From Lepisosteus oculatus (taxonomy: Eukaryota > Chordata > Actinopteri > Semionotiformes > Lepisosteidae), in contig NC_090706.1 of assembly GCF_040954835.1 (NCBI RefSeq), positions 31,939,148-32,003,147 on the forward strand: a stretch of DNA of 64,000 nt, in the 5' to 3' direction. Both the position numbers and the translations under genes were made by a program. This document shows positions 1,798-47,116 of the stretch, piece by piece. How positions within the stretch are numbered: position 1 is the first letter of the stretch; every line of letters begins with the position of its first letter. The notes under the pieces were generated by a model. The model was not told where the DNA came from. It saw nothing but the letters and a program-made list of their open reading frames with translations, and did no database searches.

Positions 1798-2120
1798 GAC
1801 ACAGCTACCTACTTTAATTAAATATATGATTATAATTCAGAAAAATAATCAGATTTAAAAAATACATTTTAAATAAACCATGGAATGCAAATTTCTAACT
1901 AAAAATACTGAAATGTATCATTGTGGGCACCCTGATCATGCAGGATGACAAAGAGCAAGCAGGATGACTAAGAGTGAATAAGTCATTATTTTTCCATACT
2001 GCAGGAAAATAAATGCTAATAAGATAATAAGCTTGTCGAAAAAGTCTTAAATCATGAAACTCATTAAGAGGTTAAAGCAAATACCTGTACTGCCCCTTCA
2101 TTGTTCCTTGAATTTTTCAG

Positions 2121-4419
2121 GAATGAGTTTGCTTACTCCTCCAGCGATGGGCTTATCTACTTGCGCCAGTTCAGCCCTGTGGGCAGAGAGATGAAGCTAA
2201 TCAATGTGATGCGGGGGCACGAGAGTGATGTCACTGCTGTCATATGGCACCACAGTCGAAGTCAGTGGATCAGCGGCTCAGAGGACAGCACCATACGTAT
2301 ATGGGTACGAGATGGGATGTTGCTACTCTATAGATACAGAAGAAAAGCAAATGTGTTTGAGAACTGGTCAGAATTACTGAGTGCATACAGTATGTCAGTC
2401 TCACAATAGGTATACAAGTTGATGAGTGAAGTGTTTTTTCCCTTTTAGATCATTTAACTCCAATAGCTTTTCCTTCAGTTAAAAGATGAACATATATTTT
2501 AACTCTAATTTCATTTTAAACTACATGGCAGATTCACAGTATAGGTCTTATTCAATTTCTGAAAACCCAGATGACACTGAAAGCATTTTATGCTGTGCCA
2601 GTAATATCAATAATATTTTGGCACTAACACTCCCTTCTGAAATCAAACAGTTAAAGGACTTGATTCTCCAAAGTTATGGTATGATTATTTCAAAATATGA
2701 CTGAATTTATCCATTCACCTGTCACAGAACTTTCTTTACACAGAACTGCCATTGTTCTGTGTGGAAAGTCATCTGTTATACCACAGTTCAACACATAGCA
2801 TTACAAAAACATGCAGAGCAATTGTTCTCCAAGCTAATTTGTTTGAATTTGATTCCCACTCTCTTTAGTTCAACAAAGTTTCCATTTCAGCACAAGGGCA
2901 AATACACAGACAGTATTAATGTATCCTAGCTAAGATTAAGGAGTTTCATGATCTGTTATTAACAACATATTCCGCAGATAGGGAAAAAAATCTTAATCAA
3001 GAACTAGACTTCCTTTTTGTGTTGCATCTGCAACATGTAAGATGAAAATTATGTGTATAACAGAACTTTAACTTAAAGACACTTTAAATATTTAACCATA
3101 GTTATTGGGATCTTTCAGAGTGTTTTTTTCTTTCAGAGTGAAAATGGCATGCAATGTGAAAACATCTTATTCACAAATGGAGCTGTAGGCTGCCTTGCCT
3201 TTGACCATTTCAATGGCTGTCTCTTGGCTGGAGTACTAAACGTGTTAAGGTACCTTATAGGCTACACCTGATATATAAAAAAAGGTGCTCTGTAGTGACT
3301 GGAGTCGGAGTTTTCACTGTTGCTAGAGGATCTTCTCTAAACCTTCTTTAAGATGTTGAACAGCTGTATATGGAGCACAATCATTTTAACTCACAAATCT
3401 CTGAGATAGAAACATTGAATTGGGATGATGCTGTTGTAGCCTTAAACGGGGTATTACACTTAAAATTTGTCTACAGGTCATCATTATTGTAAATCATAAA
3501 TTGTTTGCAAATAATTTACCTGGTAAAATGAAAGAATAAATATATATATGGAAGTTGAAGCAGATAGCTGCATCAGTATGCATAAGCTGCAAAGGAAGAG
3601 GTAAAGGTTTATTGAAAAAACAGAAAGGAAAAGAAAAGACAACATTTCGGCTGTGGAGTCTTCATCAGGGATGTAAGAATCTTTTAGGATCTTTCAGATC
3701 CTAAGCAAAGACTCAGTACAAAGACTTTCAGTAGTGAAAATTCTCATTCAGTATAAACAGCCGTTCTGAGATAATTTCTCCTCCCCAAGTGAGACTAGAA
3801 CTAAATAAAAGGAATAAGCCTTACGCAGTTGTAATATTAATTTTAATTTTTAATTTTTGTTCAGCTCATATTATTTTTTAATGTAGTAATTTTACTTTTT
3901 TTTCTTTTCAGGGTGTATGACCTGGATTCATGTTTACAAGTGCAGTCTCGTCATGGGCACACAGATACCATTCGTGCTGTTTTACATATCCCAGAAAGGA
4001 ATCAGGTGAATTAACAACTAAAGATGCCAACATTAGAATACCTATTAGGATAAACACTTCAATGTGGTTTTCAAATACTGGTTAAACTTTAGAATTCATA
4101 ACCTTTCTACATATTGTGATTTCTATTTCAGTAGTTCAGTCAAATCCTTATTAATGTGATGCAGAGATGACACTTATTAAAGGTATGCTTTAAGTGTCTT
4201 AGATCAAATACATTTGCTTTGTATTGAGCAGTATTAGTCCTAGTATGTATGGTTGTTCTTAATTCACAAAGTGAATTTAAACAGTTATCTTCTTGCTTAT
4301 ATCTAGGAAGAGTCAGACAATACACTTATTATATTTTATCTTCTGTTCTTTAGTACATCACAGGCTCTTCAGACAAAACAATACAGATGTGGAACACCTA
4401 CAGCAAGTCTCCTCCTTGA
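2121..4419 (+). CDS. WD40-repeat protein, C-terminal exons (5' part outside window)
   Basis: Four exons join in phase: 2121-2304, 3137-3249, 3912-4005 and 4354-4419 (stop TGA). All have good AG acceptors and GT donors. The first exon enters in phase 2, so at least one more exon lies upstream. The translation shows WD40 landmarks in order: a GHESDVTAVIWH strand ending in SGSEDSTIRIW, a degenerate blade (GAVGCLAFDHFNGCLLAG), then a GHTDTIRAVLHIPERN strand ending in TGSSDKTIQMWN shortly before the stop. These are the last blades of a beta-propeller, typically a protein-interaction scaffold. I do not recognise the orthologue. AATAAA near 4639 and 5618 are candidate poly(A) signals. The WD40 call is firm; function is unknown. 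Confidence 0.85.
3608..3678. repeat. Short dispersed repeat, copy 2
   Basis: Shares with 1721-1797 the order TTTATT, purine run with AAAAGAAAAGA, then TTTCGGCTGTGGAGTCTTCATCAG. It lies in the intron between the second and third visible WD40 exons, in the same orientation as copy 1. Confidence 0.6.
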
Positions 4420-6918: not shown

Positions 6919-9900
6919 ATGAAACCCTGTGGACTTCTTCCTTGTATGCTGGTTTTGATTTTTATTTCTAGTAAGTGGTTTGTCACCGTTTTTCTCTTTT
7001 ATATATTTTTATTTTTAAATGCTATTATTACTGTGATTGCAGTGTAGAGGTCCAAATCCCACATAAATCAAGCCATTTACCAATGAGGCACCACATATGG
7101 TGGACATACAGAATATGTACATAATATACATTTTCCTTGAGAATTCATGAGGGCTGATTTTCAAAAGTTTCTGTTCCTGCAGAAAGCAGTTTATACAATA
7201 TCACATTTGAAGGCTGTATTTTAAAATATGAACTTAACCTGTGTGAAATATTTTATGTTTGTGATTTTTTTGCCCTAGGTATCCAAATGGACATCATTGA
7301 TCAATTAAATCTCTGCAAACAGTGCAATGTAAACAGCAACTGCTGCATACCGTCTATTAACAATTTTTACCAACAGAGTATTGGATGGTCTTTCCATCTT
7401 GGTAAGCTTGCCTATCTTTAGATGATAGTTCCTGGAATCTGAAACGATGAAAGATTCTTCATTCTCTCTGAAGGAAATTACTGATCCTGTTTAAAATTAA
7501 AAGCAAAAAGACTATTATTCTGCATCTTTAAAATATTGACAGTGGTGTTCAACTCCTTTTTAATCTGAGCAATTAACTCTCAGTTCTGTTCTAGTAAACA
7601 CCTAATTTTCTTCTTTACTACGAGGAAGGCCTTGGAACAAATTTGAATTTATTATTACCTATATCAGGTTATGCTTTGATGAATTTTGTCAAAGCAATTA
7701 TCTATCTGGTCCCTTTGCCACTCTAGTTCAGTTCATACCTTACAACAACCTACCCTAATTATTACCCCCAGTAAATTATATTTCATTGTGTTACAACCAG
7801 AATTGAATCTGGATAATTAATCTATGAGTTCTATAATGGAGTAATGGTGGATTTTCATCAGATATCTGACCACTCATTTTTAAGTACTTAAAGTATGTGT
7901 TATGATCATAAGTCCCTCCTCTTAAGGGCACTCCGGCTCTTTCTTGTTTGCTTGATTGTCCTGCACCTGACTCCTATCCAGCCCCTCCCTACAAAAGCCA
8001 GATGCTCCTACCATTCTGGGCTCAACATTGGAAGATGGACGCCTGGAAGCCCTCCTACCAGTGGGTCCAGGAGAGGCTCGACGGCAAAGGCTTCGCAACG
8101 GCGTCCTGGTCATCTGGGTCTTGCAGCTTGGAGCTTGGTGCTTGGAGCGCCTGGCCCTGTTACACCTTTTTATTCCCCCGACCTTTCACCAGATCCCGCT
8201 CCGGCTTTTAACTTTTGTCTTGTCTGTCTTGGATGGATGACCCGGCTCTGGACTTTAGCTCCAACTCTGGATTTCCCTTACGGACTCCTGCTGGGCTGTC
8301 GCATGGGCTACGCCCCCCCCGAGCACCAGTGCACTGTCGACACGCCCCCTTGTTCTTCTATCAGCCCCACTCCTAGTCTTCTTTCCCGCATGTTTGTTAC
8401 ACTCCCTTCTGGATTCTATCGTCTGCATAGGGTCCTGATTAACACTGCGTGACAGTATGCAAGGAACCGATGATCATATATCTCATCGAAAGAGTTTGTC
8501 GTAAATTGTTAAAGAAAAAAAAGACAGCAAATTGTGTGTTTTGAATATTTTATTTTATTTTCTCCTATACCTGACAGTTGAAACTGATTTGAAGGCAATA
8601 AATCAATGCTGTGTCAACGTGTCTTTAAACATTCCTGACGGCATTACTTCCTGTAAGTGCTGTTGTTTTTTACACTTTTTAAAATTTTCATAGATTACGG
8701 AATGTTTTCAAGTTCCTTAATTGTATTGTGTTATATTTATTTAATATTTGGTTTCTCCAGCTGCCTGCAAATCCCTGGCGGAAAACATTACGAATGTATG
8801 CCTCTCGGAAAATAATTTTACAGATCACATGTTTTGTGGTAAGCACTTCAGCAGATAATGCATGCCTTATTAAAAAGTTGTTCTCGTATGGTATTTTTTT
8901 CTTACAAGTTTTATTATTTTCTTTATTTTTGTAGTCAATACTTCTAAAACACCAGGAAAAGTAATTTGTTCTATTAATTTAACTTATGTTTTATCTATCT
9001 AGTTCTCAATCTACAGTATGTACAGTATTACTCAGTTGTTTCCTGGCTTATTAATGACCCAGTTTGAGCAGCTGGGTTTTCAGATTTTTTATCCTTCTAA
9101 AGTTAGATTTATTATTAACATCAGGCCTTTTATAACAATATCATTTTTATTGTCAATATATTTCAGTATTATAACTATATTCTCCTTCCATTTTTCAGTA
9201 ATATTCAAGGACTGCCTGAAAGGTATTTTTTTCTCAGTGTTCATTCCTAAGACACATGCTTTCTATTGTATATGGACCCAAATAATACTAATTAAGAAAT
9301 AAAAGGGATATTTCTAAAGATTACTTCTCTGCAGTATATAATTGGCCTGCAATTATCTGAAACTTATTGTAAAATATTTAAGTTTTAAGTCAAATAACAG
9401 ATAACTGTAGAATATGAAATATTTTAGTATGTAAGAGGAGAGAGATTATAAAATAAGTATTGAAGGACATACAGTCAGAACCTCTATGAAATGTTCCACT
9501 GGGTTGCAGCAATGGCCGTGATGATAGGGTTGGTGGTGGTGTATTTTTGCAATAAAAGCTGGAAATGTATCTATATCTAGTGAGTAGTGATTGGCAGGAA
9601 ATACATTCAAGCTCTGTCCTGAATGCATACTGTATTCATCAATAGAATGATTGATTACAAATGGCTTTCCACAGATTCGCGGTATTTTGAATTTTATAAA
9701 GGTAAAACTAAAGCCTTTTACTCATCCCTCTCACAATTCTACAATTCATCAATTAGTTTAAGCACACGTTTTCTGTATTTTTAGTTAGCCATTTCTTGAA
9801 CATTTTCACCCTCAGAAGGCATGTTTAACTTTATTTTAATCCATTTGTCTTTAATTTTTTATTTAATGTACACATATCACAGAAGTAATCGATCTAATTA

Positions 9901-11027
9901 TTATGTGTTTTTTGTACCTCTGATTGCAGCTTACACTGTTCAAATAAAAACAAATAGCACAGAAGTTCCTGAAGGCAATGACCTTACATTGTCCTGTGCC
10001 AATTATGTTCCTAAAGTGACTCAATTGTTTTATTGGTTCAAAGATGACCAGTTCTTGAAACTTACTAATTCAAGTAATCTGACATTAAGAAATGTGTTGC
10101 AAAACTACACTGGAATGTACCACTGTACTGTGAAAACACCATGTCTAAATCTGACTTCAAATAAACTTCATATTACTGTTAAAAGTAAGTACGTCTTAAT
10201 TTATATTTTTTAAATACATTTTTCAACATGTTCTATAATATTTACAGAGAAACAGAATATAATGTTATTATTATTTATGGTTTTGTCTTTGATTATACAA
10301 CCAGGTGATGGTTTTATACTACTTCTTCTGTGTGGCTTGGCTGCTGGGATATTTGTCTTTGGCTTGGCTGTCATGATGAGATGCATACTTAAAAAATCAA
10401 GAGGTAAGGTTTTGTGTTCCTGCTCTACTTTGAAATAGCTGTCCCTCTAAATGTAGCACCATTAATAAGGTATACTGTAGCAGTGCACAGATAAATGTGA
10501 CCTACTGTATACTAGTAATATCAGAACTAAATATTTACAGACTTTTAGAAAAGCAAGAAACAGTTGTCTGTAGTTTGCCAAAACCATGACTTGCCAGGTG
10601 CGTGCAGGCTTACAGTGATGCCAGTGTGAGACACACAGCACTCCTCCAGCTGGTGCCAACTGTGCTGTTGGGCACTTGCAGCATGCCAAAAAACTATGAG
10701 AGGTGGCATGCCCCCACCTCAAAATGTGCTCTCACTCTTATTTTTCTCCATGCAGCCGCAAGCTGACAATTGATCAATCGGATGGACATTTAAAACATAT
10801 TTTAAAATTTTAATGTCCATGTTTAAAAACAATATCACCTATCCATGATCATTTGCCAATACATTTGCTTTTGCATTAAGAAGTACACATTTGTGTATCT
10901 GCCTGTAACATTATACTTTAACACCTTTTTTTTATTTTCATCTTCACCTTTTAATTTTCTGTTGTATTTCTTCACAGCCCAAAACACAAAAAGAAATGAG
11001 ATGCATATCTACGCCAACGCTACTTAA
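6919..11027 (+). CDS. Single-pass immunoglobulin-superfamily receptor
   Basis: Seven exons, all split in phase 1 (the classic Ig-domain exon phase): 6919-6970, 7279-7401, 8578-8652, 8761-8838, 9930-10184, 10305-10403 and 10978-11027. They encode 243 residues. Residues 1-17 are a signal peptide (MKPCGLLPCMLVLIFIS). Exons 2-4 (about 19-110) encode a short cysteine-rich region with CKQC and two CC pairs and several N-glycosylation sequons. Exon 5 (about 111-195) is one Ig domain: first Cys in LTLSCANY, core WF, then YTGMYHC. Exon 6 is the transmembrane helix (about 198-222) followed by RCILKKSR. The 16-residue tail ends IYANAT; YAN fits the pYxN Grb2-SH2 consensus, and there is no clear ITIM or ITAM. 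A polypyrimidine-AG acceptor at 6902 implies an upstream 5'UTR exon. Likely a leukocyte surface receptor; orthologue not recognised. Confidence 0.82.
7898..8454. mobile_element. Solo LTR (LTR retrotransposon/ERV fossil)
   Basis: A 557-bp GC-rich insert in intron 2 of the Ig receptor gene. It begins TGTTATGATC and ends GCGTGACA, and is bounded by a perfect 5-bp target-site duplication GTATG (7893-7897 and 8455-8459). TG...CA ends, 5-bp duplication and absence of internal genes define a solo LTR. It belongs to the same broad family as the element at 12332-12848. The exact superfamily (Gypsy/ERV-like) is inferred only from structure; the intact duplication suggests moderate age. Confidence 0.88.
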
Positions 11028-26479: not shown

Positions 26480-26893
26480 TTAAATCCCTCTCTCTTTGAG
26501 ATACTTCACAATGTCGTGGACTTTCTTGTTCAGTAAGCCCCCATGGACCCCTCTCTTCCCTATCAGAAACACCAGTGCCTTCGCTGTCCTTCCCACGGCT
26601 ATTGACTTCCCTTCGTCGCCCTTGGTCCTGATGTCCATGGCTGAATCTTCATCGATCATCAGATAGTCTCTGATAACCGAGGCTTTTTTACCTCCTATGG
26701 TAATGCCAGTCCTCAGGAAGGATGTCCGATCATTTCCCATCAGTATCTCCACTTCTTGTGGGCTGACAGCTGCCAGAACACCACCAGGTCTGGAAGCCCA
26801 GACAGCCTTGCTCTCTGAACAGCCGACGACAGCGGCATCTTCCACGGTTTCCTCTTTGAGAAGAGCCGCAACGTAGTCTTTCCACTCTCCCAT
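26480..26893 (-). CDS. pfn: Profilin, coding region in one exon
   Basis: An uninterrupted 137-residue ORF of full profilin length. Profilin binds G-actin, promotes nucleotide exchange and feeds polyproline-bearing actin regulators. The N-terminal WxxY pair (W4, Y7) and W32, which build the polyproline groove, are present; the C-terminus ends YLKERGI, so the usual last tyrosine is missing. The actin-binding segment retains VRD-type and KRGVHGGLLNKK blocks. Vertebrate profilins usually have two introns in the coding region; here there is none. A GT donor at 27535 (minus) and a CTTTCAACAG acceptor just before 26929 suggest a single 5'UTR intron, with a CpG-richer first exon at about 27536-27600. 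Intact frame, own poly(A) signal and probable promoter argue for a working gene, possibly an old retrogene. Paralogue class (PFN1/PFN2-like) is uncertain. Confidence 0.9.
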   Translation of the reverse strand: MGEWKDYVAALLKEETVEDAAVVGCSESKAVWASRPGGVLAAVSPQEVEILMGNDRTSFLRTGITIGGKKASVIRDYLMIDEDSAMDIRTKGDEGKSIAVGRTAKALVFLIGKRGVHGGLLNKKVHDIVKYLKERGI

Positions 26894-27535
26894 TTTTTCC
26901 CCCTATTTTCAGTTTTTAATACAGAGCTCCTGTTGAAAGATGATGTAGAGGAGTCAGAAAAATAGTCTAATCATTTATCCTACTGTTGTAACTGGTCCAT
27001 CACATTTTCTCTAATCTCTGAAAACGAATTAATTGAATTAATTGTAGGTATTGCAGTATTACTGAATCACACTTTTCTACTATAACTGCATATTTATTAC
27101 AGTTCTGAACACTGGACTGTTTATAAATGACACTAACTACTAACTACTGTTACTAACCATATACAATTCATCATTAGCAACGATCGCGTACGACCAAGCT
27201 TTCGGTACAAAGTTTCTCTTCATGTCTTACAATTGTACATACAGTACAGTAAGTCTACAGTCCATGTATTGAAATGTTACCGGAACAGAAAATAATAATA
27301 ATTAATAACAGCAAACATTTCTTCCTGGTTTGTTTTACCCTTTGTGCTATTCATTGTTGGAATGAAGGAAAGCGCAGAATGAACCTCAAATCAGAAGTCA
27401 GGCAAACAACGTTTTCACACCGAGATCAATTCTCACCACGCTGTGGTGGCCGTCCAGCAAGCTTTCAAGCGTAAACATCATTATCCTTTCCGCGTTTCCG
27501 GCACGGCACCTGTAACTGTTTTAATTTCGGCTCAC

Positions 27536-30937: not shown

Positions 30938-31174
30938 GGCAATGTAAAAAAAGTAGCAAGTTTACAATCATTTACAGAATGAAACTATGAAGAGTGATTA
31001 AAAAGGAAGTCAATTATGTTTGACTCCTTCACTACTTGCAAAGCTGAACAGTAATGATTGTTTTTTTTTCCTTTGCAGGCAAACAAGGAGTACATCTTGT
31101 GTTTGTGGTCACATGGTACATTCTCACTGTTTGGAACAAGAAAAGTGTGTTGGAATTCCGAAAGAGTCCTCATC

Positions 31175-31474
31175 ATGACTGATTTCCCCATTTTTAACGC
31201 AGCAACTTTAGGGTCTCCCGACACCACCACTCACATCGATTCCTTAGACCCGCCTGTGGAGGAGACCCACATGAGAGTACACACCATAATCATCGTCATC
31301 ATTTTCTGCGTCGTCTGCTTTCTCCTCTTGGTGGCCTTTTTCTACGCCTTCTGTTTCCACTGCACCATTGCTCCCGTGCCAAAAGAGGGTCAGTCTCAGG
31401 CCAAGTGCAACTTGGAACGTGAAGATGCTACTTACCGTAGGAGCTCCTCTCTGTCTGTGGTCAACTCTATCTGA
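31175..31474 (+). CDS. Unrecognised 99-residue single-pass membrane protein
   Basis: One coding exon with ATG at 31175 and stop at 31474. A strong acceptor (TTTTTTTTCCTTTGCAG) ends at 31078, so the ORF begins inside the last exon of a spliced transcript. Residues 1-34 form a soluble acidic N-terminus without a signal peptide. Residues 36-62 are one very hydrophobic helix (VHTIIIVIIFCVVCFLLLVA) with several Cys, followed by CTIAPVPKEG and a tail ending YRRSSSLSVVNSI, in which RRSSS is a potential basophilic-kinase site. The frame is clean, the helix convincing, and codon use coding-like. AATAAA at about 32203 could end the transcript. It resembles small single-helix regulators in size and layout, but I cannot name the family. 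Confidence 0.65.
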   Translation: MTDFPIFNAATLGSPDTTTHIDSLDPPVEETHMRVHTIIIVIIFCVVCFLLLVAFFYAFCFHCTIAPVPKEGQSQAKCNLEREDATYRRSSSLSVVNSI

Positions 31475-35672: not shown

Positions 35673-38600
35673 TCAACACACAGAGCACAGGACACTCTTC
35701 TGTGACCTGCGGGAGTCTGAGGAGCAGTCAGGAGATTCGATGATAGAATCTTTCCCATTGAACTCTGGGGAGTCCAGTTCATGGTGTACATCCTGAAGAC
35801 CATTATCCAGAAGTGAGTCCTTATAGTGAGACTGTGGGAAAGAAGGATTTGCATAAAAAAGGAATGACCATCATTTGATCTTCTTTATGGGAATAGTGAT
35901 GAATATTATAATTAAAAGGTAAAGGTTAATGATTGTAATGCTTTTTTTCTTTTCTTGTGTGAAGCACAAACATTTGTTAATTGATGTTCATTAAGAAGTA
36001 ATAAAACAAGTGACAAAATCCTTCAAATTAAGATGATGCCTTTTCTGAACCCTTTAAAATGTGCTGCTCTGCTGGTTGAAACAACATAACACTAATAAAA
36101 GGATCAATTATTTCATATACTGTGTTCCACACAAAGTACTCCCATAGCACTAGGGTGTTGTCTTAAATATAGTGAAATGTAACTGAATATCACACGTAGG
36201 ATGGCATTTAGGTTTTGTTATCAGCATTTTCAAATTCGTACTTGACCTCTTGCAAGTAACTTTTCCAAGGTGATTTTCTTTTCCTAGAGGAACAGCAGCA
36301 GTACATAAAATCTGAAAACCGAAGTGAGAGATTATGTGGAAAGTTTTGATTGCACAACCTATAAAATATAACATTCAACATTTGTTGAAAAAATGTTCAA
36401 ATTATCAATTAATCAGAATATATCCAGCCCTGAGTGTTGAAAGATCTCTAGTCTTCCATCAGCATACACCTTACCTTACTCACAGATGTTTCCTCCACAC
36501 CACACTCCTCTATAGACTCTTCTAGTGAGTTCCCTGAGACCTCCATTTTAATCCGATGGGATCGAAGGGACTTCACATCATCCTCGTCATCTCCTGCCAC
36601 TGAAGGAAAGACCTGCAGCGATGATAACAATGTTTAATTATTATTGCAGTCCAGTTGCAGTATTACCTGATCAATAGAACATAATTACAGATTTTTAGAA
36701 ACAACCCAAACGCCACACACTGTCATTGCAGTAGAATGTAGTAAAGATAAAAGGGGGTAACTGATTAAAGACTTCATGAAGGGTCATACCAATTCATCCT
36801 CATCGATGGGGGAGTCTGGTGGGGAGATGGTGGCCTTGCTGATGGTCTGAGTTTCAAACTGTGGGCAAGCGGCCTGGGCATTACCATCTTTGTCTCTCTT
36901 CCCCTTTAGCCAGTAAGTCTCAATTTCAACATTGCCCTGAACAGAAGGAAATAATGGTTCACTTTGTGAATAGTGAAATAATTTTTAACTCCTCCAAATC
37001 GATTCAATAAAAGCTGCATTAAACTTCTGATTTTTTAGGCTTTGGCACATACAGTATTTACATTAAGAATTAAGGCAATTTCTCTTAAGTACAATGCTCA
37101 CTGTAACTTTCTTTGACTGCATCAGACTGTAACCACTCTCACCTTTAAATAGAATGACAAAAAGCCTTTTATTTAATGGTATCTTTATTTGTTCTCACTG
37201 ATAGTGTACAGTACTCAACCCTTATTTGCAAAAGCAATTCAAATATAAGGTCTGAGGCACCTATTAACCTTGAAGGAGTATCTCTAGAAGGTTCAAGAAA
37301 GACAAAGAAGCTGTATAAAACATACACAGGGATCATCTACAGATGAGGTGTCTCAGTCAAGAACTGAACCTAGAAACCCAGAGTAGCAAAGTAGGTAATG
37401 TTATATTCTGTTATGTTCTACTCTGATGTCTTAAGAAAAACTAAATAAAAGAAAATTGTCTGTGATTAAGAAAAAAAATCAAAGTCAAGAATACCTTATT
37501 ATCTCAGGCACTACATGGTAATGAAAAGGTACAGTACCTTAATAGTGATAGTGCCTCTCCTCTCAAAAATAAAATGACTTCCCTTGAGGTGTTCATAGGT
37601 GGCACTGCTTAACTGGATATGCATTTCCTACACCAAGAGCAAAAGATTGAAGACAAAACAGTCAATTCAATTGTTTAATAAAAACATTTTTTCTTAGAAT
37701 ATATATTAATACTCATCAAATAAATCAATTAATGACAAGAGGTCACAGACTCTCAGCGGAATAGATGAAAGAAGCTAGGCTCACAACAATAATTCACAGT
37801 TATCAGAAAAAGATCAATATTTTATTGCGAAAGGTCCTTTTTCTTAGATGAATCTAAGATAAGTATTTTATGCTTGCAGTTACAACAGTTGCCTCTGCTT
37901 TATGGCACTTTAATCATGCAATGTGAGACTCTACCTCTCTTGTACAGCATCATTGGAGAATTGTAACTCTTCCGCTATTGTACATACCTTCCCATTACTC
38001 TCCATGGCAGAGGCTGTGTGGACTGTGTCTCCATAGAGACCGTAGCGTGGCATCTTGTGTCCCACCACTCCGGCCACCACCATCCCAGAATGGATTCCTA
38101 AAATGAAAAACAAACATTGGGATTTTCCTGACGAAAGTCCTGATGAGTTTTTCCTCATGAGGTTGTAAAAGGCAAAAAGAAGGAGAGAAAAACAACACAT
38201 ACAGTACCCAAAGATTTACAGCGGTGCTGTGCGGTAAAAACAAAACCAATGAAAATAGATTAATCGACCGTGTGCGCTGTCTCTCTAGTCCAAAATTATT
38301 TATTTAATAACAAACCAAAACATAAGGAGCAGAGAGACTGTGCACCTGGTAAACTCTACTATATTTATTGATTATGGGAATTAGTCAGCACCAAATTAAA
38401 AGGAATGTGGCATGCTAAATAAATGTACTTCATATATACTGTATACTGTATATAGCGATAATAATACACACCTAAAACATTGTATTATATATCTAGGTTC
38501 TTATCTAGCAACCTAGCTTCATAAGCACATATTCGTTTTTTTCACTGTGGAAGAGGTATTGTCTGCAGTAAAGTGTAGAATCTGCATCTCTGCCCTCACC

Positions 38601-41600
38601 AACGCGGATCTGGATGTTGTTCCCAGTGGAGGGGTCCTTCAGGTGGTCGATGGAGCGCACCATATCCAGGGCCATGTCACAGATATTATGGGCATGATAC
38701 TTGGTTTTCTCAGGCGCACCAGCCACCACCATGTATGCATCTCCTATGGTCTCTACCTGAGGAAGGAGACAATAGCAGTCTTCAAGCCTTCACAGACTTT
38801 TATGCATTGCTGATACTGTTGGCATTTCCCTTTAATTGAGAATTGTCTTATTTTTCAACAAAAGTATAAAAAAATGCATTCGTATTATAATCAAACGCAT
38901 AAATACGTATTATGTTAATAGGTATCATTGATTGTTTCTAGGCATCCATCATCCAGATTGACAATAAAATACAAAAACAAATACAATACTATATATTTAT
39001 TTTGTAATACTAAACAGGCTTCTATTTCCCACAGTTTTTTTAAGTATGAATAAATAGCTTTATTGCCCTGTCTACAGATGCTGGTTTATTACAAGGCTCA
39101 AGTTTCTTTGTGAATGGAGTGCTGACCCTCCATTCTCCGTATCACTGGGTAGCCCTGAATAGGAGCAAACCAGCTGCTCACCTTGAAGACCCTGTGCTTC
39201 TCGCTGAGGGTGTCGAAGAGTGTGTACATGGTGTTCAGCATTGACACAACCTGCATGGGAGTAATGTGGCTGCAGATGCGAGTGAAGCCCACGACATCAC
39301 TGAAGAGGATGGTCACATCTGGAAACACCTGGGGGCCACAGCAGAGAGAGGTGTCTACCCTTTTGAGCAGTCCCTCACTCCCTTGCTCATATCCCCGTCG
39401 TAGTAGCAAGGGACTTTGTGTGTCGAAACCACAGTGAAAGAAGATCAAAAGCTTTTATTCTGTGACTCAAAAAAATATGATTGTGAATGATCAAGATTGT
39501 TGTTGTATAAAGCAACTTTGATTTTCCTCTTTTCTTAAATGGGGGCCTTATGACTGACTTGATTTATTCAGGATTCATTCAAACAGCTATAATCACATAC
39601 ATTCTAATTATTCTTGTTCACTTTCCCATCCTGCCTCCAATTGCCTTTTACAAACGCTGTATTATGTTTTTGCAGACATAAAGTTTTGGTGTTCAAAAAT
39701 GGATTCCACCCAAATAAAAGAGCGTATATAATACAGAATATATGGAAATTCCTCCTTAATTAATGTAGAGGGAAGATGTGCTAACCTCCACTCAGCGACC
39801 ATAGCATGTTTACTTTCTCTCTGAATCTGAGATCTAAATAGCTTCATTTCTTAGGCCCAGGCCTGTTCTTAATTTGGTCAATTTAATATTTGCATGGGTA
39901 ACCCCAGAACCTGGTGCCCCTGCGTTGCCTGACCTCACAAGTGTTGACAGCTGGCTCTCCTTTGCGTAGCCGCTTGGCAACTGGCTTGGGGATCATTCTG
40001 TAGAGCAAATCATCCGTCTTCTTCATCTCATAGTCCAGCATCTTCATGCTCTCCTCCAATTTACTGGACTTTTTTTGCTCCTAAAGCCGAATGCACAGCA
40101 TGTTTGCACTTCCAGACAGTACGGTTTGTGTAGCATAGACAACAGCATTCGTCCAGCATGCTCAAAGCTGTGCATTGAGGTCACATCTGGGCTTTGGACA
40201 ATGTCATGTGACAATGCACATCTGGCAGTTGTCTATTTACAGTTTGGAGGAATTAAAATCAACACATGCATCTAAAACTCATTTGAAAACGTTTGACTCT
40301 TTAGTAAATTTAAAGAGCAGCTTTCAAGGAAAGTCAAACCTTGAAACCGTCTATGGCCAATTTACCTGTATAAGGGCTCTTTTTAGCTCTTCGGACTGTT
40401 GCGTTCCTGCTAGAACAAGATCTCGGCTGGAGTCGTGCATGCTCAGGTCATTTATGTACAATCCAGTCTTAAACATGGCACTCAACCTTTTGCCGTCTAT
40501 GGCCAATTTACCTGTATAAGGGCTCTTTTTAGCTCTTCGGACTGTTGCGTTCCTGCTAGAACAAGATCTCGGCTGGAGTCGTGCATGCTCAGGTCATTTA
40601 TGTACAATCCAGTCTTAAACATGGCACTCAAGCTCTCCATCCTAGAACAGTGGGAAATAGATGTGGTAATACATGGGTACACATTTACACTAACACCTGG
40701 ACAGAAAATTAGGTGCTGATAAGCAATTATACATTCTAAACAAATAAAGACAGGGGTAACAAGTCAGTGCTCTTACTCCTGTCTGTGTTCAGAAAAGAAA
40801 AGCTATGTGAAATGCATTCCCACTGAATATTTTTACATCCGAAATGTGCAGCATTTACAGAAGGTAAAACATTCGCAAAAGCTTCTTTTCTCCACACGTC
40901 CGCAAAGACGAGTCTGATGTTGACAGGGGAAGTCCCTAGGGGAAAGGTTAAGACCGGAAGGCAATGCAATATTGATGGGCTTGGATGGTGTGCAGAGGCT
41001 TCTCAGAGGGGACAGGAAAGGACTCTTAAGTGTCTGGTTCTTACACAGGTGTGCCCAGAAAGATAATGGACTCCCACTCAGGCATGTATCTCATCTGCCC
41101 CTTCAGCTTCAAGCAGCGGCTCCCATCTCCCCAGCTCTCCATGGCGTTCGAGCTGTTTCCGTCTGGGGGAAGATTATCACCAAGACCTGAATCAAACTGC
41201 TGCAGTATTTCTCTCTGCCCTTTCATGTCCTGCATCAATGAACTATTTCATCAGCTGCGAATCAGACTAGAAAGCTAGGATAGCTCATGGTATTTCTTTT
41301 CTCAATTCCCTTTTTTAAAGCCTAACAGTTTGTGTCTTTGCAGAAGGCAGCTCTCCCCTCTTCTTCTCAATTACACATATAACTGAGAAATAATATACTT
41401 ATAACATATTATATACAATACAATATTTTGGAATAACTAAATATGAATGCACTTCTGCTTTCCATGAATTAAATGATACTCTTCTGGTGTTCTTCAAAAT
41501 ATATTAGCCCTATTATCCACCCATATTCTAACCACTTTATCCAATTCAGGGTCAAGGGGGAGCTGGAGCCTATCCCAGCAAGCAACGGTCACAAGGCAGG

Positions 41601-44600
41601 ATACACCGGAGAGGGGACACCAGTCCATCACAGGGCACACAGACACAAACACACACTCCCAGAAGCCAATCAACCTGCCAGCATGTTTATGGACTATGTG
41701 TGGAAACCGGAACATCCAGAGACAACCCACACAAACATGAGGAGAACATACAAACTCCATGCACATAGCATCCTAGAAATTGAACCCAGGGCTCCAGACC
41801 TGCGAGACAGGGATGTGAATTGCTGCTGCCCTAGCCCTACAACTTATAAGCTAAACTGAGAAGAGCAGTTTCATCTCAGAGCCAATCAGTGGTTCAAGTT
41901 TATATTATCCATCTGCTTGGTCCAGAGTACATCATTTATCTGGGAGTACACACTCCTTGTTCTATGATAGATGCAAGCTTGATTTTTTTTCTATGCTCAC
42001 TCTCTCTTATGTGTCAGCTATGCTCAACTGCGTTTTGGGAGCTTGAGGTTGATAGAAAAGATTCTTGTTTAGTCATAAAAGGTTAAAACCTGGATTAAAC
42101 ACTGTTAACACTTTTCAACATAACATTCTCTACTAATCATTCATTGACCTCTGAGGCATATGACTTCGAAATTCGTTTGACCAGACCTGTGTAAGACCTT
42201 CTTATTTTTTTAATGGCTTCTGCAAGTATGTAACGTGAGGAAGCCAATATACCTTTGTAATCATCTCCAATAATTGACTGAAATGCCATAAGCTCCACAT
42301 CAACATCAGCAGATCGATTAGCATTCTCATAATCAGAGTCTGTGGAAAGAAGACAAAAATGTCATCTCACAGGTCAGCACCGCATTATGAATGTCTAATC
42401 CTTTCCATTATAAAATCAATAAAACATGCTTTGAGAATCTGAAATTGTTGCATAACAAAGCAAATGAAAGAAATGAAAAGGACAGAGAGAAGGGAATGTA
42501 AATCAGAAAAAAGGGAATCTACTGTCAATAAAAATGGGCATTACTCTGAACTCGATTGTGCAGGTTCCTCTCTCTCTTTACTGGTTCCTTTGACATGATC
42601 TCGAACAGGTTGTTTGGGTGTGAAATAATCTACAACACACAGAATTGAAGATTTGTTCATTGAAAGTACAAAGCATTTAAAGAAGTACCCATACAGTGAA
42701 CATTTTGTCGCTACTTGTGTTTACTAAAAATGGACAATTGATATTACATCAATGATCACAGAACATTTATATTTACACAAAATATATAAAGTGGGAACGT
42801 ATCAGGAACAATACGCATACAAGAAAAATATTCTTGTATTTTTGATGGCCTAGTTCACAAGTTTAGCTTTCATTTTTGTGAAGTCCAACTCCCTCTAGTG
42901 GTTATCTGGTTACAAGAGGTTTCAAGGTAGATGGCTTAAAGTAGGATGATAAGCATTTTTTGTTCTGTCATTGTAATCATAAAAATAATACAGTCATAGC
43001 TCACAATACTTTGATCACTTTTTTTGTGATGAAGAGTCATAATACAGTGCAGGTTCAACAGTTCAACAGATTTAAAGATAGGGTTGATATAGATAAAGTG
43101 ATTTTCTCTATGATTTTGCTTCTATTCACCTCATAGTGCATCAGAAATGATAACCTACTGTACTTAATCTTAAATACTTAATTACATACATAAAAATAAA
43201 TTGAATTTCAAAATAAACTACTTTCTGACTCATATGATAACATTGAATGCAGAACACAGCACAATTACATTGTTATCATCCTGATGTTCATTTGTAATAT
43301 GGAGAGAAAAGGCTTCTATGAGTAGCAGATATCCTACAGTATGTCCTGTTTTGTGCTCATACCTTACCAGACTTATTAGAATCATATACATAATGTACAT
43401 GAAATGGAATTATTTCATTCAATTGTAATGCCAACTGCAAATAGTGCATTAAAAATTTGAATCAGGCCTATGTGGAACAGATGTAAGATTTCAAAGGTAT
43501 AGAGTCAGGACATTGACAAACCATGTTCCAGGTGAACTCCACCAAGGGCCGGGCCAGCAGAAAGGCATCATTAATCTTTTTTCCATCCAAATCTGGGAAA
43601 ACAGTGGCCAGGCCTGAGCCTACATTATGAACAACCATATCCTAGAGAAACAAAAAAATGTGGTTAAACAGCTTCTGAAATCCATACATGATGTACCTAC
43701 CTGCTTTAGAGGATTTTTTGGTTAATATTTTAGTGGCCCTTACCGATTTAAACATAATTTATATATTTTTTCCAGAAGCTGGTAAACATTAGCAGCAGGT
43801 TAATTATAAAAAGTAAAGAGCAAATAGTCACAGATATAGCTGTATCTGTCTTAACTGATGAGGCTGCCAGAACCGAGATATTAGAAGTTTGCGCATCACA
43901 CAAAATGCATTGATTAACTTCTTGGAACAAATCAATGTGTTACTGTCACATTACACTCCCACTAAATTAGAAAATGTTGCTAATGAGCAGGTGAAAGCTA
44001 TAACTATTCACAGAACAGATGTGCTTTTAGTTTTCATTTATGTCATTTTTTCCTGTCTTTAAAGATGTAACTGACATTGCTTTATTTGCTTTTATTTCTT
44101 AAGTAAGCATAGATAACTTAATATAAAAGCAAACTTCTATATACAGATATAGCTGGTTACATTACCAGGTTAGAAAGAAAATCAAAGACACTGCAATGAA
44201 ATTAGAAGATGTGTATGAAGACGTGCTCTTTCAAATGATCTTAATCATAAAAGAGAGTTTGAGGAAAAATAGTGAGAGGATACATTAGAGGTCTGTGCAG
44301 AAAATGAACATCATGAATTTGGAGAAATTAATCTGATGTTTCCTTTATGTTATTTGTTGCAGAATCCAAATGAAGCTTTTCCAGCCATACAAATCAATCT
44401 GGATATTATTAACAGTTCTGTGTTTTGAGTGTATTCATAGACATTTAAAGAAGACATTTAGGCAGGCTGTTAAATCACAAAATCTCAATCCAAGCCATTA
44501 ATGTACACCTGCAGAAATACTGTGATGTACTACATATAGAATACACACAGTGTTGTTGGATTGCGCATTTCAAAACAATGAAATACACAATACACTCTCT

Positions 44601-47116
44601 ATTGTATTTTCAAGTACATTGGAATTGCAGCCTCTGAAGGTCATAATGAAACCCAAGGATCAGTTGGCTATATTAAGGCTTGCACTAACCTGTCTGAAGA
44701 CAATGTTAAAGGGGAACACCTCAAAGAAGAAGTCACTAGTGATGGGCAGTATCTCCTGTTCCTCTTCATCTTCCTTCTGGATATACCGGTAGGCTGAGTT
44801 ATCAAAGTTCAACCTGAGGACAAAGTGGCAAAGCAAAAAAGGATGGACATTGGGCGTGAGTTCTGTATCTGGTTAAAAACTGTTGACAAAACTAACGAAA
44901 AGCTGCATTTGCACTACAGGATGCATCTGCAATCTTGTTATGGGCTTTATAAAATGACAGGCACTCTTGTGTGAAAATAAATCTCACGGAACCTCATGGT
45001 GACATGGGAGTAGTCTCCCACAAGCTGCTCACTCAGAACCTCCACATGGATGTCGGTGTCATAGAACTGCTTTCCCATCTGCCTCAGCTGGCCCATGGCA
45101 TAATGCAGGTAGCCTTTCCTCTTACTCCTGCAGTCAGCACAGTACAACACAGAAGCACAGGCTCTTAGATTCCTGCTTCGCTTGACACTTTATTTCACAT
45201 CATTTTGTGAGGCTAGAAAATCTAGCATAGTTCATTACATGACATTTTGGACATATTCCCTCACCCTTTCATTTGCAAATAGTTTGCATATTTTGCCTGT
45301 GAAAGCTCATCTTTGTTGGGTGAGTAGGACCATTGTAAAGAGGAAACCTCCTACTCACATCTAAACAGTTTTTGTATCATTGCGTTCAATCAGCAAATTA
45401 AAATGTTGCATAACTGTTAAAAGTGCAATATCATAATAAACAATACGACAAATTCTAAGCGTGTGATTCATAATACATATACGTAGGTATTACAGTGATG
45501 TAAAGCATTCATAAGAAAAAACTGTGTTGTGTAATGCACTATAACTTTATTACAGTAAACCACAGTAAAATGGGATAAAGCAGAGCTTCTCTCCCTCTTT
45601 TCAGTGACCTGTAATGCAGAGTAACTCCGGTGGCTGATTCTTCCTGACAGAAAAAGGTGGGGGGTTGGACTTTCGGGTAGCTGAATCGGAGGTATTCGTG
45701 TAGGTTGTCCAGCCCGTTAACAAAGTCTCTGACGTGTCGCCCCAGAACCTGTAACACAAAGATGTTCCACCTCAAATCCATGTCAGCCTGCCACACTGAC
45801 AAGCATTTCTGAGGGAGGACTCTTATTGATGTTATGATTTATGGGTATGACTATTGATTAACTCTTGCCATATTACAACACCAGGAAGAGGGAACCATCT
45901 TTCAACTTCAAATTCCATATTTAAAATCACAGCAAGCAGCTATAGACAGCTGTTTCTCCCTTGGTGGTGACTTATCACCAGTTTATCAGTGGGGCATATC
46001 ATTACATAATACATTATATAATAAATATATCTATAAAAATATATATTCAAACTTTTTTCAGAATGACAGGCTTACATTGTTCCTGAACATGAAGGGAAAT
46101 ATGTCAGTGTGAAAAGAAAGTTGAAAAAACAGAAAGAACAGGGGTCTGTCTTTAAAGATTACTGGAGATTGTCCAAGAATTGCATATTTGTCCCCCTTTT
46201 AAATAATGATTTATGTTTAATTTTACCTTTGGACGTCCTCTACCCACCTTTAATATTCTGTCATAGCCATACTTCCCTACAAATCCCAGAAAGTAAACAC
46301 CCCAAGAGTTCATCAGCTCATTGTAGGGGGTTCCTGTTACCCCACTGGCAGCTTTGGCAATGCGAGGAATGACACTCTCGCTGTAAACCTGAAAGAGGAG
46401 GATCGCAGTCTCTCAATAGGATGTTCACTTGAGGGACTCTGACCAGAGATCTCAGGAAGCAAATAACCTGTTATGTTTGTTCCGGCCTTGGAAGCCAATA
46501 TTATTTTTCCATAATCAGTTACAGGTAAGCAAGGTATACAGTAGATGCCTTTAGCAATGCTGGTAAGACCAATCATCAGCCTTGCTGCAACCAATCAAAC
46601 AAACAATCTACCGTTTGAGCCTTAGAAATTTTGATCTTTTGATCACATACAACTGTAAGTTGTTTTTTCCTTCTGACAAAGATTAAATTAGTCCCAGAAA
46701 TACACAAATAGTATAACGACTGACTATCAATGCAGTCAAACCAAGGAAAGTCATATTTAACTCCTAATCTGTACCTATCATATAATGGAGTCATCAAACA
46801 TCAGTGATTTAGCTAGATAAGGTAATTGTCTTTTAATAACCAGGAAAACTGTGTGATTTCATCAGTCAGAATGCAAATACAGGATTTAATTTGCTCTATT
46901 TTGTTCCTCTATTCTGGTCTTTCACTCATATGGTAGAGTAAGTCCTGCCAAGATTCTTATTTAACTTCTCAAAGCATTGATCCTAAATGACACCTGATGT
47001 GTAACGAAGGAATGCAGTCTGACATCTGCCCTCTCGCGGACGAGTTTCCAGACATCATCCCCATAGGATTCTTTAATGAAGTCGTGCAGACTCTCACATA
47101 GCAACCCGTACATCAT
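35673..47116 (-). CDS. Gyc88E-like: Atypical soluble guanylate cyclase, Gyc-88E-like
   Basis: Eighteen exons close in phase to 761 residues: 46994-47113, 46248-46388, 45609-45748, 44993-45127, 44690-44813, 43522-43641, 42545-42629, 42253-42339, 41045-41162, 40512-40641, 39934-40080, 39182-39328, 38600-38756, 37988-38097, 37538-37627, 36790-36936, 36484-36612, 35673-35831. Domains: heme H-NOX (1-180; MYGLL start, proximal His104, YRSKR at 133-137, Tyr143), PAS-like HNOBA (about 210-365), coiled coil (390-445), cyclase (450-617), acidic tail ending CSVC. Metal Asp460 and Asp504 and purine Glu500 are present, but Gly570, His577 and Ala581 replace the usual Cys, Asn and Arg. [16 protein letters not shown] and the H-NOX are far closer to insect Gyc-88E than to vertebrate beta1 or beta2. 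Two in-frame ATGs (47116, 47113); exon 9 has an alternative acceptor (ending TTGATTCAG). Probably a cytosolic O2-responsive cGMP-pathway subunit. Confidence 0.92.
36475..36483 (-). other. Tandem alternative donor of cyclase exon 17
   Basis: Two good GT donors lie 9 bases apart (TCT|GTGAGT and AAG|GTAAGG). Use of the distal one adds Val-Ser-Lys in frame before the last exon. Confidence 0.55.
40347..40631. repeat. Perfect tandem duplication spanning a cyclase exon
   Basis: Two identical 139-bp blocks, 40347-40485 and 40493-40631, are separated by 7 bases (period 146). On the minus strand each holds most of cyclase exon 10 plus its donor GTAAAT and the first intron bases. Only the 40493-40631 copy has the strong CTGTTCTAG acceptor. 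The other copy is preceded by GGCAAAAG, a weak acceptor, which would still give an in-frame exon (40366-40486). Absence of any mismatch implies a very young duplication or an assembly artefact. Confidence 0.97.
41515..41835 (-). repeat. tRNA-head SINE with L2-type tail (minus strand)
   Basis: Reverse complement of the same layout as 30636-30937: CAGGGTCAAGGGGGAGCTGGAGCCTATCCCAGC at the tail side, CCAGTCCATCACAGGGCACAC in the middle and GAACCCAGGGCTCCAGACC near the head. It lies in the intron between cyclase exons 8 and 9, in the sense orientation of that gene. Confidence 0.75.

Follow-up and report, generated by a model that had tools for sequence, protein, structure and literature searches.

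A gene for a soluble guanylate cyclase (sGC) of the 88E type, here called 88E-A, was found in a 64,000-nucleotide stretch of the genome of the spotted gar Lepisosteus oculatus (NC_090706.1, positions 31,939,148 to 32,003,147 of the forward strand; hereafter the window, in which the gene coordinates below are counted). The gene occupies exactly 35673..47116 on the minus strand. Catalytic residues lost from 88E-A are retained in a second fish paralog, 88E-B, and residues of the metal half that 88E-A retains are changed in 88E-B. We believe, with a probability of roughly 0.6, that the two proteins (A and B) work only as a heterodimer that shares one catalytic site, and that this dimer would raise cyclic guanosine monophosphate (cGMP) when oxygen (O2) falls. 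Vertebrate sGC is taught as alpha1, alpha2, beta1 and beta2. Fish A and B are two further, highly conserved vertebrate sGC subunits from a family whose fly members respond to O2, and would be concrete candidates for oxygen sensing in fish. 88E-A is not a rare relic, nor is it an ordinary 88E enzyme; what is new is the split active site. Such a site would repeat the layout of sGC alpha/beta and of adenylate cyclase C1/C2, and would offer close paralogs in which to test how obligate heterodimers evolve.

The family tree was built with IQ-TREE (LG+C20+F+G4) from 39 rows and 630 columns: the window protein, 6 A, 8 B, 6 amphioxus, 9 other invertebrate 88E, 6 beta2, 2 beta1 and 1 alpha1 sequences. 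The window gene fell inside an A clade supported at 100/100, itself part of an 88E clade of 100/100, and beta2 formed a separate clade of 100/100. The tree carries a warning of long branches joining at several points, the beta2 and 88E stems among them, a caveat to be read beside the full support of both clades. Because the window gene sits in the 88E clade, apart from beta2, it is an 88E-type sGC and neither beta1 nor beta2. This agrees with the original prediction, and the gene was not placed inside either beta family. The heme histidine, the YxSxR motif, and the H-NOX, HNOBA and class III cyclase domains are all present in 88E-A. GUCY1B2 (beta2) has the same three domains and the heme histidine, and many proteins of both groups carry a cysteine at position -4, as would be expected if the window gene were GUCY1B2 under another name. 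We give that reading almost no weight, since the two clades are separate, 88E-A and gar beta2 share 37.2% identity over aligned positions, and gar beta2 lies elsewhere in the genome (C15). GUCY1B2 also differs from A in its full Cys/Asn/Arg set and in its H-NOX domain, as described below. The GUCY1B2 identity was rejected, the window gene being outside the beta2 clade and gar beta2 a distinct gene. GUCY1B1 was rejected as well: the window gene does not group with beta1 in the tree, and gar has its own beta1 locus on C1. In searches of the gar's own assembly, which spans 1.2 Gb in 813 contigs and has the window on C11, 88E-B was located on C30. Two further matches, one beside beta1 on C1 and the other on C5, probably represent alpha1 and alpha2, judging from their position and a weak match. 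A second beta2-like gene was seen at C13:6811500-6823500 (L018, L019), about 51-90% identical to gar beta2 per tblastn piece. In the mouse, GUCY1B2 occurs in olfactory type B cells, which are detectors of low oxygen (PMC6131590).

The active site of human sGC is described in PMC3591389. D486 and D530 of the alpha subunit bind metal; on the beta subunit, E473 and C541 contact the guanine, N548 the ribose, and R552 and K593 the phosphate. The same paper states that human homodimers are inactive, neither holding the full residue set, and that the beta C541S change alone severely lowers activity. In our alignment, 88E-A retains the metal Asp461 and the P-loop Gly464 and Thr466 in exon 12 (39182..39328), and Glu501, Gly504 and the metal Asp505 in exon 13 (38600..38756). 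In exon 14 (37988..38097), the guanine cysteine (Cys571 to Gly), the ribose asparagine (Asn578 to His) and the phosphate arginine (Arg582 to Ala) are all replaced. The KGKG loop reads KGNV in exon 16 (36790..36936), where the cyclase domain ends. B has the Cys, Asn and Arg as well as both metal Asp, with Gly464 changed to Lys, Thr466 to Asn and Gly504 to Arg (A numbering), and the gar B on C30 shows the same motifs as other B proteins. Two subunits with complementary residues are present in one genome, namely the window A and the C30 B, and the complementary changes are shared by sharks and bony fishes. The description of the gene as an atypical, O2-sensing form was right as to the atypical 88E type and incomplete as to the site, since the catalytic Asn, Arg and Cys are gone. 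The changed residues of exon 14 had escaped the original prediction, as had a tandem duplication of exon 10 described below.

The homology search with the window protein gave 683 matches, and that with Polyodon B gave 531; the best 120 were listed in each case. Each listed match stands for a cluster at 90% identity, of which one member is named and the others are hidden, so an absent name means little. Among the listed matches, 44 A, 72 B, 120 beta2 and 21 non-amphioxus invertebrate 88E rows were assigned by inspection, with isoforms of one species counted separately. Three of the 21 invertebrate rows are nameless and were taken as invertebrate by rank. Rows that were truncated, exon-skipped or off-pattern were scored as unreadable. 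Gly/His/Ala stood in place of Cys/Asn/Arg in every readable A row (43/43), and the metal/P-loop motif (43/43) and VETIGD (40/40) were retained wherever readable. In the readable B rows, Cys/Asn/Arg was retained in 61/61, the P-loop was of the DVVKFN type (K..N) in 70/70, and VETIRD was found in 67/67. Cys, Asn and Arg were also kept in 21/21 invertebrate 88E rows and in 112/112 readable beta2 rows. We then considered 69 cyclase columns that are invariant across 14 outgroup 88E and 6 beta2 rows, the rows being chosen by the analyst. Eight of the 69 were changed in A (13 rows), including 3/3 of the C2-type and 0/4 of the C1-type (hypergeometric P 0.0011). Three of the 69 were changed in B (12 rows), including 2/4 of the C1-type and 0/3 of the C2-type (hypergeometric P 0.0075). 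The P-loop Thr to Asn change of B also occurs in human beta1, and the Asn/Arg loss of A parallels alpha1, which has Thr and Lys there. Because the sites of invertebrate 88E and beta2 are complete, the losses in A and B look independent of those in the classical alpha/beta pair.

In the heterodimer that we propose, A would give the metal-binding Asp pair and the triphosphate loop, as sGC alpha1 and adenylate cyclase C1 do. The guanine-reading Glu/Cys, the ribose Asn and the phosphate Arg would come from B, as they do from beta1 and C2. A alone should be no efficient cyclase, because its active-site Asn, Arg and Cys are gone; the complete catalytic set that permits a homodimer was found in the invertebrate 88E matches and is lacking in 88E-A. 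It could be argued that A works by itself as an O2-inhibited homodimer, in the manner of Drosophila Gyc-88E, considering its place in the 88E clade, its heme His, YxSxR and H-NOX Tyr, and the activity of fly Gyc88E without other subunits, which is reported in PMC11344882. However, Asn578His, Arg582Ala and Cys571Gly all stand against such an enzyme, as does the human C541S result, and we consider it very improbable. The same three losses, together with the altered KGKG loop, would suit a pseudo-cyclase, that is, a regulatory or dominant-negative H-NOX subunit that uses its cyclase domain for dimerisation only. This is unlikely in our view, as the metal Asp pair and the P-loop Gly/Thr persist in every readable A, residues for which a purely structural domain would have no use.

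Within the proposed A+B heterodimer, gas would probably be sensed at the H-NOX heme, chiefly that of A, which carries the Tyr typical of 88E. Exon 3 (45609..45748) encodes the heme-ligand His105 and the Tyr of YxSxR; exon 4 (44993..45127) encodes the remainder of YxSxR and a Tyr at the position of human beta1 I145, which we take to be the site of the O2-binding Tyr in bacterial H-NOX. The heme His was found in 41/41 readable A and 65/65 readable B rows. The I145 position is Tyr in 37/37 readable A, 21/21 invertebrate 88E and 18/18 amphioxus rows, Phe in 67/67 readable B rows, and Ile in 117/118 readable beta2 rows. Because A has Tyr and B has Phe at this position, A is more likely than B to read O2, and other ligands may bind to B. 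According to PMC2990333, fly atypical sGC is strongly stimulated without O2 and inhibited with O2; by analogy with the fly enzymes, the cGMP output of A+B would rise as O2 drops. The protein ends in the CaaX-like sequence CSVC, encoded with the stop codon in exon 18 (35673..35831), after the variable tail of exon 17 (36475..36612). A cysteine at -4 was present in 32/44 A, 59/72 B, 17/21 invertebrate 88E and 71/120 beta2 rows, incomplete models included. Prenylation of this tail would perhaps tether A and B to the membrane.

The searches from the window protein and from Polyodon B separated the fish proteins into two groups, A and B, at about 53% identity to each other. The cyclase identity between A and B was 71.3% and 72.5%. 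The database annotates these proteins automatically as "88E-like". Among the matches listed, both paralogs were named in 17 species. The non-teleosts are the coelacanth, spotted gar, elephant shark, white shark, Scyliorhinus canicula, Scyliorhinus torazame, Mobula, Narcine and Hemiscyllium; the eight teleosts are Anoplopoma, Archocentrus, Limanda, Pseudochaenichthys, Stigmatopora, Danionella, Muraenolepis and Mugilogobius. Named 88E-like matches in the best 120 of either search span sharks, rays, a chimaera, gar, many teleosts and the coelacanth. The claim that the lineage survived in some fishes was correct and understated, given a range from sharks to the coelacanth and two paralogs. The domains are highly conserved: gar and shark A share 97.8% identity in H-NOX and 94.4% in the cyclase (83.2% and 85.4% for gar and shark beta2), and paddlefish and shark B share 96.8% and 97.8%. 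Tail identity in the same comparisons is low, at 38.0% for A and 34.5% for B. When the gar genome was searched by tblastn, the matches of A and B were interrupted at similar points near the catalytic exon. Because A and B each hold cartilaginous and bony fishes, both in the 39-row tree and in a second tree of 30 rows, the A/B duplication should be older than the crown jawed vertebrates.

No tetrapod A or B was named in either best-120 list, although a few rows are nameless and the clusters may hide one. With identity above 60% and below 90% to any fish protein, an orthologue from a tetrapod would rank ahead of the listed amphioxus matches. Tetrapod and lungfish genomes are in the database, because the beta2 search lists many tetrapods and the lungfish Protopterus. 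The loss in mammals that had been suggested fits these lists; with hidden cluster members, they are no proof of it. If confirmed, a loss toward tetrapods could be compared with the move to air. We tentatively extend the A+B reading, at somewhat less than even odds, to the jawed vertebrates as a whole. They would possess a second heterodimeric sGC, 88E-A/88E-B, that arose by complementary half-losses in 88E duplicates, independently of alpha1/beta1. This enzyme would have sensed O2 in the gnathostome ancestor, persisting almost unchanged in fishes and disappearing on the way to tetrapods. In PMC12673963, gyc88e is highly transcribed in pikeperch brain, is up in piscivores and is counted among genes previously unknown as active in fish; this gyc88e could be A or B. 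The 2006 phylogeny in PMC1435932 draws its O2-regulated basal group from insects and nematodes. In searches of an open-licence library, no listing or passage seen described two vertebrate 88E paralogs or an A/B split site, a weak negative because most subscription papers lie outside that library; PMC10248080 was the one paper listed with both GUCY1B2 and Gyc-88E.

Several points weigh against an obligate A+B heterodimer and its proposed history. The column test was devised only after the motifs had been noticed. B retains both metal Asp, so that its metal half may be changed without being inactive, and a B homodimer might work. The Gly464 column is variable elsewhere, with Thr in beta2 and in 2/21 invertebrate 88E rows. 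Many species were named for one paralog only, though clustering hides members. The branching order of A, B and amphioxus differs between trees: A+B were sisters at 87/66 in the 39-row tree, and A joined amphioxus at 72/34 in the 30-row tree, where neither a constrained A+B (approximately unbiased (AU) test, p 0.409) nor a constrained B+amphioxus (AU p 0.236) was rejected. Beta1 has the Asn/Arg/Cys half that A lost and is in the same genome, and the alpha-like residue pattern of A suits beta1 equally as B. A might then be an alpha substitute that pairs with classical beta1 in a fish-specific dimer sensitive to nitric oxide or O2, with B a separate enzyme. We think this improbable: A and B are close kin in their cyclase domains and carry complementary changes, and beta1 seemingly has two alpha partners already (those adjoining it on C1 and on C5, for which the alpha naming comes from position and match).

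Amphioxus also muddies the history, one gene being without the Arg and the other having both an intact and an Asn/Arg-less exon. In gene 1 the Arg is replaced by Tyr (P0044-P0048, P0053), and the KGKG loop of P0044 carries an insertion. For gene 2, the catalytic exon is intact in P0049-P0052 and P0054-P0056 and is without Asn/Arg in P0057, P0058, P0060 and P0061; the partial model P0076 holds both exon versions in tandem. This suggests alternative splicing of the catalytic exon in gene 2, and either a deep chordate history or more than one origin for site splitting. Because amphioxus has an alternative catalytic exon, one was sought in the gar: a tblastn of three exon versions against the window found no second, intact exon 14, with only exon 14 itself significant and the others at E >1.

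88E-A was also compared with known cyclases. Invertebrate 88E proteins, including the Drosophila Gyc-88E type, belong to the same clade as A and share its order of domains, its heme His and YxSxR, and a Tyr at the I145 position; they differ from it in keeping Cys, Asn and Arg throughout the 21 listed matches. Musca represented the dipteran 88E proteins here, Drosophila included. Fish B has the same domains as A and belongs to a sister or near-sister clade; it differs in keeping Cys/Asn/Arg, in the replacement of the P-loop Thr and of the Gly next to the metal Asp, and in its H-NOX Phe. Classical alpha1/beta1 (GUCY1A1/GUCY1B1) shows the same division of residues, A resembling alpha1 and B resembling beta1. 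It belongs to a different lineage, and its heme sensor is on the beta half, whereas the Tyr-bearing H-NOX of the A/B pair is on the alpha-like half. Drosophila Gyc-88E and Gyc-89D are atypical sGCs; PMC11344882 reports that 88E is enhanced by 89D, which suggests heterodimers. Fly 88E is active without 89D in the same paper, so the fly pair is non-obligate on the 88E side, unlike the proposed A+B. Caenorhabditis elegans GCY-31 and GCY-33 are atypical sGCs too.

The gene model of 88E-A has 18 exons, all on the minus strand, and every intron is GT-AG. The frame is 765 residues (coding sequence 2298 nt) with zero internal stops. The 18 exons and the domain order of the original prediction were confirmed; where it counted 761 residues, the present model has 765. 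The Pfam domains follow the order HNOB (PF07700, E 3.2e-51), HNOBA (PF07701, 2e-73) and Guanylate_cyc (PF00211, 1.9e-64). Besides exons 3 and 4, H-NOX is encoded by exon 1 (46994..47116), with the start codon and the domain onset, and by exon 2 (46248..46388), and exon 5 (44690..44813) covers the passage from H-NOX to HNOBA. HNOBA continues through exon 6 (43522..43641), exon 7 (42545..42629), exon 8 (42253..42339, a linker) and exon 9 (41045..41162) and ends in exon 10 (40512..40641), where the putative coiled-coil region begins. This region extends into exon 11 (39934..40080). A coiled coil is suggested by the match of residues 378-440 to PDB 3hls (sGC beta-1), presumably a structure of the sGC coiled coil, rather than by direct prediction. 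The cyclase domain comprises exons 12 to 16, of which exon 15 lies at 37538..37627. The top four database matches share 93-94% identity over 97-100% of the query, which excludes a chance open frame.

Two tandem copies with a period of 146 bp and 100% matches (40347..40631, minus strand; repeat scan) cover most of exon 10. The first copy retains its acceptor and donor; in the downstream copy the usual acceptor context is absent, and the frame is lost if that copy is read through. The annotated Lepisosteus oculatus model P0034 equals 88E-A at 586/588 aligned positions and is without residues 279-317 (exons 7 and 8). One of its differences, S to R at residue 361, falls next to the boundary between the copies, a hint that this duplication also misled the annotation of P0034. 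Such a perfect duplication inside the gene might be a sign that gar 88E-A is decaying. We find this highly unlikely: all 18 exons are open with GT-AG introns, the splice sites of the first exon 10 copy are intact, the domains are near-identical to those of salmon, coelacanth and shark A (the tail differs, at 38% to shark), and the duplication may be an assembly error. The pseudogene reading was rejected on the open GT-AG gene model and the high domain conservation.

Other features of the window were recorded. A WD40-repeat exon of an unnamed gene lies at 2068-2409 (+), and an immunoglobulin-domain exon at 9800-10213 (+). An open frame of 138 residues at 31058-31474 (+) contains a strongly hydrophobic stretch and gave no match in a Pfam search. 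Sixteen perfect TTA repeats occupy 326-373. At 26480-26902 (-), a single uninterrupted frame encodes a profilin-2-like protein of about 140 residues, possibly a retrogene.

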